Shown in pieces: positions 41,236 through 48,341 of a DNA stretch of 64,000 nucleotides. The DNA comes from Polynucleobacter necessarius (GTDB taxonomy: Bacteria; Pseudomonadota; Gammaproteobacteria; Burkholderiales; Burkholderiaceae). The stretch's first letter is position 1. Each line of letters begins with the position of its first letter. The position numbers and the translations under genes were made by a program. Under the pieces are notes generated by a model, which was not told where the DNA came from, made no database searches, and saw only the letters and a list, made by a program, of their open reading frames with translations. The DNA is taken from the NCBI RefSeq assembly GCF_900095205.1, contig NZ_LT606951.1, positions 1,662,263 through 1,726,262 on the forward strand, written 5' to 3'.

Positions 41236-41748
41236 ATGTCTAACACCACTAATGATTTTGTAGGCGTTCTTGAAGCAGACCTCAATGGTCAGGATCTACG
41301 CATTGGTATCGTACAAGCCCGCTTTAATGAAGATCATTGTGTCGCATTAACGAATTCTTGTATTAACGAACTTATCTCTCTTGGAGTTTTGCAAGCTGAT
41401 ATCAAGCTGGTTACGGTTCCAGGGGCACTAGAGATTCCTTTTGCACTCCAAAAGCTAGCAGAAACTGGTGAGTTTGATGGCTTGATTGCTCTTGGGGCGG
41501 TGATTCGCGGTGAAACCTATCACTTCGAATTAGTCTTCAACGAGTCTGCAGCCGGCATTACTCGCATCTCGATTGATTCGGGATTGCCAATTGCCAATGG
41601 AGTGTTGACTTGCGACACTGATGAGCAGGCTCATGCGCGCGTTCAAGTAAAAGGCGCTGAATGTGCTCAAGCTGTAGTCGAGATGGCGAATCTTGCTCTG
41701 GCATTAACCCCTAATATCGATATTGAAATCAACTCGAGTGAAGAATAA
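41236..41748 (+). CDS. ribH: 6,7-dimethyl-8-ribityllumazine synthase
   Basis: A 170-residue enzyme: IGIVQARFNEDHCVALTNSC, VTVPGALEIPFALQKLAETG, ALGAVIRGETYHFELVFNES and GVLTCDTDEQAHARV. The catalytic His lies in the GETYHFE loop. It condenses the RibB and RibD-route products to lumazine. Normally ribH is followed directly by nusB in relatives; here a decayed sugar cluster is inserted and the last 55 bases recur before nusB. Confidence 0.95.
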   Translation: MSNTTNDFVGVLEADLNGQDLRIGIVQARFNEDHCVALTNSCINELISLGVLQADIKLVTVPGALEIPFALQKLAETGEFDGLIALGAVIRGETYHFELVFNESAAGITRISIDSGLPIANGVLTCDTDEQAHARVQVKGAECAQAVVEMANLALALTPNIDIEINSSEE

Positions 41749-41755
41749 ATTGCAT
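41701..41755 (+). repeat. Left copy of ribH-end direct repeat
   Basis: These 55 bases (end of the ribH reading frame plus AAATTGCAT) recur at 48287-48341 with 48 identical positions. Coding meaning: LTPNIDIEINSSEE here and LTPHNYIEINLSEE in the right copy. Confidence 0.93.
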
Positions 41756-42054
41756 TTTTATCCCTAGTTAGAGCCTTCTCGCTTCCAGCGGGACTTGCTT
41801 TAGGGTGTATTGCTGATGTTTTTAACAAGATAAGAATCGGAATCAGTAGTCACTAGGCTTTATCTGAGCATATATTAGGAATACATTGCACCCTCTCGCA
41901 ATTTTCCTAGACAAATTTCCTATTATTTGAAATATGTTTAATTAACCCAAACCCGATAAATAAATCTAGTAAATAAAAGGGTTTGAAGAAAATTAATGGT
42001 AGCTATTCGAATAGAATACTTCCATTAGCGTTTAACGGAATATTTAATCAAAAA

Positions 42055-42834
42055 ATGAAGGCCGTCATGCTTGCTGGTGGTTTGGGTACTCGAATTTCTG
42101 AGGAAACTCATCTGAAGCCAAAACCAATGATAGAAATTGGTGATGCCTATTCTTTGGCACATTATGAAGCTCTATTCTGGTCACGGAGTGAATGATTTCA
42201 TTATTTGCTGTGGTTATCGTGGATATGTCATTAAAGAATATTTTGCTAATTACTTTTTGCACATGTCCGACGTGACGTTTGATATGAGCGCAAATACGAT
42301 GGAGGTTCATCAAAAGAAAGCTGAACCTTGGCGCGTAACACTAGTTGATACTGGTGAGAGCACTATGACTGGTGGTCGATTGAAGCGTGTATCTGAGTTT
42401 ATTAAAGATGAAGAAGCATTTTGTTTTACTTATGGGGATGGGTTTAAGTGATATCGATATTGCAGAATCCATCCGCTTTCATCGTGAGCACGGCAAGCTT
42501 GCAACTGTAACAGCAGTCGCACCCCAGGACGCTATGGCGCATTGGATTGTGAAGGTAGCAAGGTCTTAGGCTTTGTTGAAAAACCTAAGGGTGATGGTGC
42601 GGTAATTAATAGTGGCTTTTTCGTGCTTTCTCCCAAATGTTTAGACTTAATCGATAGCGATCAAACCAGTTGGGAGTCTTCCCCTTTAATTGAGCTTGCT
42701 TCCAAGGGGCAGTTAATGGCGTTTGAGCATCATGGTTTCTGGCAACCCATGGACACACCCCCCTGCTGCGCAATAAAAATCGTCTTGAGGAGCTTTGGTT
42801 GTCGGGCGAAGCGCCTTGGAAAAGCTGGAAATGA
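42055..42834 (+). pseudogene. rfbF: Glucose-1-phosphate cytidylyltransferase, several frameshifts
   Basis: MKAVMLAGGLGTRISEETHL and KPKPMIEIG give the nucleotidyltransferase loop. After that the frame changes to ILW/HIMKLYSGHGVNDFIICC (RfbF core), again near 42441 (extra G before the expected LSDIDIAESIRFHREHGKLA), again near 42528 (one C missing, expected APPGRYGALD), and again near 42762. The pieces cover the normal 260 residues ending LSGEAPWKSWK. It would activate glucose as CDP-glucose. The TGA overlaps the rfbG ATG. Confidence 0.9.
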
Positions 42835-43913
42835 GCCTGGCAGGAAGTGCTAACCCCAATTTTTGGGCTAATAAGCGCGTTTTATTGACAGGACATACCG
42901 GCTTTAAAGGGGCGTGGTTAGCGCTAATGCTGTTGCGCATGGGGGCCAAAGGCTACAGGAATTAGCTTACCGCCTAATAGCGCCCCCAATCTTTTTTCAC
43001 TTGCAAAAATTGATCAATGCATTAAAAGCCATTTCATCGATATTCGCGATGCGAAGGCATTAGCGAAAGTCGTTGATCAGGTTAAGCCAGAAATTGTTTT
43101 TCATTTAACTGCGCAAGCTTTGGTTAGAGCGGGCTACAAAGACCCCTTCACTACTTTTGAGACAAACATCATCGGTACTGCAAATGTGATGGATGCATTG
43201 CGGGGAAAAGATTTTGCGCGAGTAGTTGTGGCAATCACTACGGATAAGGTTTATAAAAATTTAGAGCATCATCACCCGTATCGTGAGACTGATGCCCTGG
43301 GTGGACATGATCCTTATAGTTATAGTGCCAGCAAGGCTGGAAGTGAAATTATCATTTCTTCCTATCGTGATTCCTATTTAAGTCAACAGGGAGTTGCGGT
43401 AGTCTCAGCTCGTGCAGGGAACGTTATTGGTGGTGGTGATTGGTCCGATGATCGACTCATTCCAGATGCGGTACGCGCCTGGAATACTGGCGCCGTGCTT
43501 GAGATTCGTAGGCCTATGGCGATTCGTCCTTGGCAACATGTTCTTGAGCCTTTGAATGCTTATCTGGTTTTGGCGGAAAAGCTCCATGTAGATCCCTCTT
43601 TGGCGGGTGCTTATAACATTGGGCCTCAAACTCATGAGGCTGCTACCGTCCAAGAGGTCACTGAATTGGCAAAATAATGCTATGGTCAAGGAACTGTCTC
43701 GTATGGTGAAGGCGATGAGGGGCCGCATGAGGCTGATATTTTAACTTTAGAGATTGCCAAGGCTATGGATTTGTTAGGAGTGACTCCACGTTGGAATTTG
43801 CTGGCCACTATTGAACACACAATGAATTGGTATCAAAAACACAAGGAGGTGTAAATGCAGCTAATTTGTGTGAAGAGGATATTGAAAAATTTAATAAAGC
43901 TTTATTAGCTTAA
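42831..43913 (+). pseudogene. rfbG: CDP-glucose 4,6-dehydratase, frameshifts and a stop
   Basis: The start reads NKRVLLTGHTGFKGAWLALM, the SDR loop typical of RfbG. An extra base near 42950 shifts the frame; the core then reads HLTAQALVRAGYKDPFTTFE, ITTDKVYKN and DPYSYSASKAGSEIII (Tyr-x-x-x-Lys). A TAA at 43675-43677 interrupts, after which YGQGTVSYGEGDEGPHEADI continues in frame. A last shift near 43845 leads to the probable native end EEDIEKFNKALLA at 43913. It would make CDP-4-keto-6-deoxyglucose. Confidence 0.9.
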
Positions 43914-43918
43914 CGCCC

Positions 43919-46530: not shown

Positions 46531-46643
46531 TGTGTCTTGTTAGATATAAATCTTGACAGGCAAATATAGAGTTATTGATGTTGAATTCTAAGTTTTAAAT
46601 TGGCCCGGTACCCAGAATTTCTTGAATTAAATTGGAGTTAATC

Positions 46644-47413
46644 ATGACTGATTTCCGCAAGGAAGTGGCGATGCGCATAGATGCGGTTGCTACTGATACT
46701 GAATTAAATAATGCGGCTAAAGAGTTTCTATTAGCGAGTTTTGCAAAAAAATATTCCTATAATTTTCTTGGCAAGATCGTCCGATCATTCAGTATCCCCA
46801 AGATATGGTGGCTATGCAGGAAATTATTTGGAGCGTGCAGCCAGATTTAATTATTGAGACTGGCATTGCTCACGGTGGCTCGCTGATCTTTAGCGCCTCA
46901 ATGTTGGCTTTGCTTGATATGATCGATGCCATCCAAACTGGTGAGACTATTAATCTAAAGATTTCTCAGCGCAAAGTATTGGGGTTAGATATTGATATCC
47001 GTCCCCACAACTTAGCTGCAATACAAGCGCATCCCATGTCATCCCGTATTGAAATGATTCAAGGATCTAGTATTGATCCTGCAATAGTGGATCAGGTGAG
47101 GTCGATCGCTAAAGGTTATAAAAAAGTATTGGTGTGCTTAGATAGCAACCATACGCATGACCATGTCTTGGCTGAGTTAGAGGCATATGCGCCACTTACT
47201 AGCGTAGGAAGTTATTGCGTAGTATTTGATACTCTTGTTGAAGATCTGACCGATGATTTATGTATGGATCGACCTTGGGGTCCTGGCGATAATCCGAAAA
47301 CTGCTGTTTGGGAATATCTCAAAACCCATTCTGAATTTGAAATTGATAAATCCATTCAAAATAAGTTGCTAGTAACAGTTGCTTCAGATGGATATTTGAA
47401 GTGGGTGAAGTGA
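46644..47413 (+). pseudogene. CmcI/cephalosporin-hydroxylase family methyltransferase, frameshifted
   Basis: After MTDFRKEVAMRIDAVA the frame reaches KYSYNF and then loses register, apparently by one missing T near 46765; the continuation MVAMQEIIWSVQPDLIIETG, AHGGSLIFSASMLAL, KVLVCLDSNHTHDHVLAELE and VFDTLVEDL is the CmcI-like SAM-dependent fold. Members occur in O-antigen clusters as probable sugar methyltransferases. From 46805 to the stop it is uninterrupted. Confidence 0.83.
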
Positions 47414-47484
47414 TTACACGTCTTTTTTAGATCAACTGAAATTTTTTAACTACATAAAACACGTTGTAAAAGGCGCTAACACCT

Positions 47485-48097
47485 ATGGCTGATGTAACAG
47501 TAATTATTCCCGTGAGAAATGATCGAGATTACGTCACGTTTGCTATAGATTCAGTTCTCAAACAAACCTATCAAAGTATTAGATTGATTGTTAGTGATAA
47601 TGGGTCTACCGATGGTACCGTAGAAATTTTACGTAATCTGCAGACTGATAATAAGTTTGAAATATTTCTTCAGGATGGCTCGCTATCCATGTTTGAGTAT
47701 TTTAATTTATGTATAGATTACGTTGATAGTCCTTACTATATGTTGCTATGTCACGATGATCTTATTGGCAATCGTGATGCCATTTCTGAAGCCATGGATG
47801 TTGTGAAGCAGTACCCGAAGGTGTCAGCTATTTACTCAAATATGCTGTATGTAGATGAGGTTGGGGAAATTATTGCCAAGAAAAAATTTTTCCAATCAGG
47901 TTTATTTAATGGTCATGAGGTTGCCGTGTTATGGGCTGGACCTCTTTAGCTTGTCTAATACTATTTATTGGGGGTTGCCAGCTATTAGTCTTAGGGGCAA
48001 TCGGCGAATATCTAGGCCGCACTTATATTTTCATATCAATGGTAAGCCTCAATATACGGTCAAAGAAACTCTAAATGAGCCTAAAAATAAGGATTAA
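47485..48097 (+). pseudogene. Chimeric remnant: family 2 glycosyltransferase joined to the tail of a GtrB-like transferase
   Basis: Residues 1-150 form a GT2 N-terminus: VTVIIPVRNDRDYVTFAIDS, LIVSDNGSTDG, CHDDLIGNRDA. At about 47930 the sequence changes to GWTSLACLILFIGGCQLLVL and GAIGEYLGRTY, the membrane tail of a polyprenyl-phosphate glycosyltransferase (GtrB/DPM1 type), out of frame; a further shift precedes the end GKPQYTVKETLNEPKNKD. A deletion fused two different transferases and removed whatever lay between. Confidence 0.75.
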
Positions 48098-48286
48098 GAC
48101 TCTTGCTCAAGCTTACTTTAATTTTTTTACCATTTTTGTTTATCTATAGAATTGAGTTTTAGACACTTATACGCACCAAACTGAGACCCTTATCTTCCTA
48201 GAGCCTTTCTTTGTGTCGAACTATAATTGCAACTTACATGGGCCCTTTTCGTTTAGAGTTTTGATCAATAAAAGTAGTGTCGCCTA

Positions 48287-48341
48287 GCGCTAACCCCTCA
48301 TAACTACATTGAAATCAACTTGAGTGAAGAATAAATTGCAT
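48287..48341 (+). repeat. Right copy of ribH-end direct repeat
   Basis: Matches 41701-41755 at 48 of 55 positions and ends inside the nusB start codon region (ATG at 48340). It has no ribH body in front of it, so it is a fragment. It keeps a full ribH-like reading LTPHNYIEINLSEE and stop. Confidence 0.93.

Follow-up and report, generated by a model that had tools for sequence, protein, structure and literature searches.

How did a cluster of surface-sugar genes come to stand between ribH and nusB in Polynucleobacter necessarius? In the window analysed here, a 64,000-nucleotide (nt) stretch of the genome (assembly GCF_900095205.1, contig NZ_LT606951.1, positions 1,662,263 to 1,726,262), the lumazine synthase gene ribH (41236–41748, plus strand, 170 residues) and nusB (48340–48849, plus strand, 169 residues) are both intact, and the island between them carries broken sugar genes and is bounded by two diverged copies of a short sequence taken from the ribH–nusB boundary. 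The explanation favoured here, held at somewhat better than even confidence, is that a cytidine diphosphate (CDP)-sugar module entered this lineage on a single occasion, by a non-site-specific insertion that duplicated its target. The most likely route would be illegitimate recombination, via a staggered break or template switch, with one of the genus's own sugar loci supplying the DNA. Being dispensable, the module would since have had all of its genes broken, like many of the genes around it.

The junction repeat

The ends of the island are marked by a direct repeat, 41698–41775 and 48284–48361, which aligns without gaps over 78 nt with 62 of 78 positions identical (16 differing sites) and is the sole direct repeat of at least 45 nt found in a repeat search of the window. 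A preliminary description of this DNA had reported 48 of 55 identical positions between 41701–41755 and 48287–48341, with four residue differences between the two ribH-end readings, LALTPNIDIEINSSEE and LALTPHNYIEINLSEE, each followed by a stop. Both observations hold, although the match is in fact longer, and its identity over the full 78 nt agrees with the earlier view that the repeat is not a fresh copy. A whole-genome search with 41690–41800 as query returned two places only at E ≤ 0.001, the second at E 1.1e-13 over 51 nt; chance is thereby ruled out as the origin of the repeat core, and no third copy of the junction repeat was found at this threshold.

The repeat takes in the last 16 codons of ribH together with its stop, continues across the spacer as far as the first two bases of the nusB ATG, and, judging from the alignment, probably extends into nusB to about the seventh codon; this whole span would be the target that was duplicated upon insertion. 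At the nusB-side end, 12 of 20 positions are identical in register, a level that 62 of the roughly 64,000 positions in the window also attain. Divergence between the copies is unevenly distributed. In the block shared by the two genes, which runs up to and includes the nusB ATG, 33 of 35 positions are identical (31 of 32 ahead of the ATG), compared with 17/24 in the block used by ribH alone and 12/19 in that used by nusB alone, and the shared and ribH-only blocks differ with a Fisher p of 0.024, the block limits having been chosen after the alignment had been seen. In the left copy (41698–41775, plus strand), the functional ribH end and stop are kept and are followed by the spacer and a probable decayed nusB start, in which ATG reads ATT. 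In the right copy (48284–48361, plus strand), a decayed ribH end precedes the conserved leader, ATG and first codons of nusB; its ribH-specific residues are lost, such that it reads TPHNYI at a position where relatives read TPDxD in 45 of 46 rows (representing 43 genomes, three of them entered twice), the single departure probably being G146 with APDIDI. Each copy thus looks like a whole ribH–nusB junction rather than a ribH end alone, and the divergence pattern fits two half-used copies, each of which would have kept its working half, the right-hand leader presumably being retained for the needs of nusB.

The lineage of the two copies bears on where they came from. Both carry the stop-plus-spacer form GAATAAATTGC, and among the same 46 rows a near-identical form, GAATAATTTGC, is found only in G002, the nearest genome by ribH (96% identity; by nusB the nearest is G004, at 95%). 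The form is 3 nt longer in 13 listed relatives of the close clade, and in locus L016 the anchor-to-ATG length equals that of the right copy and G002. These features favour descent of both copies from the window's own lineage and make it less likely, as had been proposed earlier, that the island brought its ribH end from another strain, although a near relative may have been the donor. At third codon positions, ribBA and ribH diverge from their G002 counterparts by 35–41%, so the split between the two lineages is old; the differences in the spare halves of the two copies (29–37%) could be nearly as old as that split.

Several observations weigh against a target duplication of this kind and against the shared ancestry of its copies. 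The repeat covers no more than a short piece of nusB, and when the 105 nt starting at 41756 were aligned to nusB with gaps allowed, the score was no better than that of shuffled sequences (fraction reaching it, 0.70); as the final 20 nt of the 78-nt match fall within the stretch tested, this result speaks against an extension of the repeat into nusB. A flank duplication of 78 nt is long for simple end joining, and the insert is known from one strain only. The stop position is not unique by itself, as several more distant relatives likewise end in GAATAA. The tree of both ribH ends called for in the preliminary description was computed with FastTree and joins the left copy (WL), the right copy (WR) and G002, with weak support (0.72) and with the right copy outside a pair formed by the left copy and G002. 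In raw identity, G174 and G004 (0.786) rank ahead of both the left copy (0.765) and G002 when compared with the right copy, and the left copy is closer to G004 (0.762) than to G002 (0.726), the nusB start of G002 carrying a small deletion that lowers its score. Homology extending beyond the repeat was sought on both sides in three gapped-alignment tests, of which the comparison from 41756 was the first, and none gave a signal relative to shuffles (fractions reaching the score, 0.70, 0.72 and 0.77).

A direct repeat of the junction around an insert, with both copies from the same clade, is also what would be left by a single-crossover (Campbell-type) integration of a circular DNA, such as a plasmid or DNA excised as a circle in the same or a closely related strain, carrying the sugar module together with a copy of the junction. 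This route requires a donor circle in which junction and module were joined, and none was seen; the 132 other genomes in which the site could be tested are module-free at the junction. The homology is, moreover, short for efficient RecA recombination, and integration by single crossover is considered rather unlikely.

The insert and its distribution in the genus

Profile searches of nine island pieces (E ≤ 0.001; one piece without a match) and the order of the genes identify the cargo as a CDP-sugar module for surface polysaccharide, an rfbF–rfbG pair followed in order by sugar-modifying genes, all on the plus strand. The first gene, an rfbF-like glucose-1-phosphate cytidylyltransferase (42055–42831; TIGR02623 on two pieces), is broken across frames 1, 2 and 1 when mapped against the clusters of L058, L053 and L062. 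It is followed by an rfbG-like CDP-glucose 4,6-dehydratase (42816–43869; TIGR02622) with a frameshift near 42945, a frameshifted rmlC-like sugar 3,5-epimerase (43919–44473; TIGR01221, PF00908) and a sugar C-methyltransferase spread over several frames (44476–45703; PF08484 C-terminal domain). A NAD-dependent epimerase/dehydratase (45703–46530; PF01370) is interrupted in its 5′ part, with an in-frame stop shortly past 45800 and an open frame only from 45889, and a gene of the CmcI/rhamnosyl O-methyltransferase family (46644–47413; PF04989, 286.9 bits) has one frameshift near 46765. All six module genes are therefore interrupted by frame changes or an in-frame stop relative to intact clusters, which bears out the earlier description of a decayed sugar cluster. 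Beyond them lie the N-terminal part of a family-2 glycosyltransferase (47485–47949; PF00535) and fragments in two frames (47935–48097), recognised by three-frame translation from 40% identity over 30 residues in L098 (E 0.001) and presumably resembling the membrane C-terminus of another glycosyltransferase. The two parts of this region (47485–48097), at the right end of the island, were probably joined by an internal deletion.

The cargo is ordinary. The order of the six genes is collinear with the intact clusters of L058, L053 and L062, and six or seven of seven pieces recur in 36 of 84 compared loci, and at least five in 65 of 84, mostly in a similar order; since 80 of these loci were picked for the CmcI gene, one piece is present by choice. 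Among 151 genomes of the genus, this one (G000) included, the CmcI gene occurs in four and rfbG, at E ≤ 1e-30, in 42. CmcI homologues from other genera show 68–79% identity (best 80 of at least 543 matches), and a protein search with the rfbG piece returned a widespread CDP-glucose 4,6-dehydratase family, at best 76% identical. Among the loci fetched, the closest DNA comes from within the genus, on a contig of G169 (70% over 3.6 kb), followed by a contig of G190 (70% over 1.6 kb) and by G172 (67% over 3.5 kb). Base composition does not set the island apart (0.38–0.47 G+C, against 0.40–0.48 outside), the promoter and terminator scans showed no excess over shuffles (11 sites against a mean of 15.0, and 4 against 5.4), and no further copy of the right end of the island (47940–48300) was found in the genome.

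The genus set comprises one genome per species, so that the comparison is one between species. ribH was found in 134 of the 151 genomes, nusB in 134 and both in 133 (G133, G042 and G046 being entered by the pieces at the junction); the remaining 18, in which one or both gene matches are missing, stand outside the site count. In all 133 the two genes lie on one contig and on the same strand, and in 132 the site is empty, with match ends at most 196 nt apart, a maximum set by a partial nusB match in G054; the next largest gap is 90 nt. The present genome alone carries an insert, with 6594 nt between ribH and nusB. Reading the junction itself in 43 relatives showed ribH followed immediately by nusB in every one, with no second ribH end before nusB in these cluster-free genomes. 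Insertion at this boundary and the existence of empty sites in relatives, both anticipated in the preliminary description, are thus supported, and the facts are best accounted for by a one-off insertion that duplicated its target.

The same description had gone further, proposing that recombination at ribH–nusB regularly exchanges surface-sugar cassettes between strains. A single sugar-gene insert with partial repeats would be compatible with such a swap site. With 132 of 133 testable genomes free of any cassette there and a single genome occupied, this reading fails between species. The rfbG-bearing sugar loci of the genus also lie elsewhere. Their positions were tabulated for 39 of the 41 other rfbG genomes (G150 and G169, with matches on several contigs, were left out), and in the 31 genomes where rfbG shares a contig with ribH it lies 34–89 kb upstream of ribH in 25, in opposite orientation in 23 of these, 31–51 kb downstream in 4 and far away in 2. 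The exchange of cassettes at this site is accordingly rejected between species and regarded as very improbable overall.

The earlier statement that integrase and tRNA are absent is supported for the island and the window, respectively, and no mobility domain was detected among the nine island pieces at E ≤ 0.001. One Phage_integrase-family gene lies in the window at about 20.4–20.9 kb, within a gene that is syntenic in G002 and 94% identical there. It is one of two PF00589 genes in the genome, both outside the island, PF00589 being the only family searched genome-wide, without serine recombinases or transposases. A direct repeat over the 3′ end of a gene is the usual anatomy of integrative islands, and the insert could in principle be the remnant of an element that targeted the 3′ end of ribH and supplied a substitute for it, and whose integrase has since eroded away; the signs of internal deletion at the right end, and the fact that the repeat is most secure over the ribH end and spacer, would suit such an origin. 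The lack of mobility domains within the island, with both integrase genes elsewhere (in a genome-wide search confined to PF00589, serine recombinases not searched), the absence of any other occupied site among the testable genomes, and a recognised cargo that is a sugar operon make this distinctly unlikely. More doubtful still is an unrecognised attachment site at the ribH 3′ end, used by an element that bore a copy of the junction and has lost its recombinase, or the related case in which an outgoing sugar locus was moved here upon replacement of the resident cluster.

Regional decay and a likely resident sugar locus

The broken state of the island is shared by its surroundings. In one syntenic stretch, 8 of 19 genes syntenic with G002 are broken in the window, compared with 0/20, 0/19 and 2/20 in three relatives. 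Frameshifts or stops occur at 37015–39700 and 48960–50435, in what we take to be ribD-like, pilin-type and aldehyde dehydrogenase-like genes; of these, only the 189-residue pilin-type gene is broken elsewhere, in one of the three relatives. The segments 55145–56062 and 59512–60246 contain four and two in-frame stops, respectively, relative to G002. The fraction of bases in frames of at least 150 residues is 0.60 in the upstream flank L044 (positions 1640000–1659999 of the G000 chromosome), 0.75 in the window, where the first 16 kb reach 0.91, and 0.92 in the flank L045, with 0.73–0.96 in stretches of relatives; the low value in L044 suggests that gene decay continues on the upstream side of the window. 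Amid this decay, ribH, nusB and a ribBA-like gene are intact. Decay is regional and uneven, and extends beyond the island.

So many frameshifts within a short region could also point to an assembly or sequencing artefact that produced both a false repeat and false frameshifts. The genome is, however, a single contig of 1.93 Mb and 99.92% complete. Gene breakage is clustered, with the initial 16 kb largely open and the ribBA-like gene, ribH and nusB sound; and the two copies, with 16 mismatches in 78 sites, cannot be one stretch assembled twice. On these grounds the artefact is rejected and given hardly any credence.

The genome has another sugar cluster, a large one upstream of ribH on the minus strand (1–15246), mostly in long open frames, with genes for a guanosine diphosphate (GDP)-mannose dehydratase, a uridine diphosphate (UDP)-sugar dehydrogenase, an aminotransferase, a flippase-like protein and an asparagine synthase-like protein. 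Sugar genes also occupy L044 from about 13576 to its end at 20000, with 2.3 kb between L044 and the window lying outside the stretches read. This upstream cluster is likely to be the resident sugar locus. In the frame 4649–5491 an epimerase domain covers only the first 150 of 280 residues, so the resident cluster may not be wholly intact. That frame lies beside a short one, 4092–4496, and the pair may reflect a fusion or a deletion within the cluster.

According to one review, endosymbiotic Polynucleobacter have genomes of 1.7–1.8 Mb with more pseudogenes, and their free-living relatives genomes of 2.1–2.5 Mb (PMC11253213). The occurrence of broken genes beside intact core genes resembles the condition of endosymbiotic P. 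necessarius, as a likeness only, whereas the size of 1.93 Mb falls between the endosymbiont and free-living ranges given there.

Comparison with known systems

In those parts of the literature consulted on endosymbiotic Polynucleobacter, Polynucleobacter islands, ribH/nusB islands and illegitimate insertion, no report of an insert between ribH and nusB was found. The locus illustrates how an old insertion may be recognised by what became of the target it duplicated, through complementary decay in which each half is kept where a gene needs it. It also serves as a caution, in that a repeat-bounded sugar cluster in one strain is no proof of a recombination hotspot, the rfbG-type sugar loci of the genus being situated tens of kilobases from ribH–nusB.

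The cargo itself corresponds to the rfbF–rfbG–rfbC type of CDP-sugar module, with the same genes in mostly the same order as in the collinear intact clusters, and differs from it in being broken and in its place at the ribH–nusB boundary. Polynucleobacter is described as having replacement genomic islands that govern cell-surface composition (CSC; PMC5644125), and aquatic bacteria as having replacement flexible islands (PMC4033161). The insert resembles such islands in its surface-sugar cargo, and DNA related to its module is found in G172 at a distance of 49 kb on the upstream side of ribH, within the region where most rfbG genes of the genus are found. Replacement islands contain different clusters at the same place across strains; here, in contrast, the other 132 genomes are empty. 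With additive islands and integrative elements the insert has in common that extra DNA is flanked by direct repeats of the 3′ end of a gene. In these, flanking repeats would be accompanied by a recombinase and a reused target, whereas here no integrase-family gene is present in the island (PF00589 and the island pieces), the window lacks a tRNA, and the target is unused in the 132 other genomes. The two repeat copies have, in addition, drifted apart, and the repeat probably reaches into the start of the downstream gene, unlike that of an integrative element.

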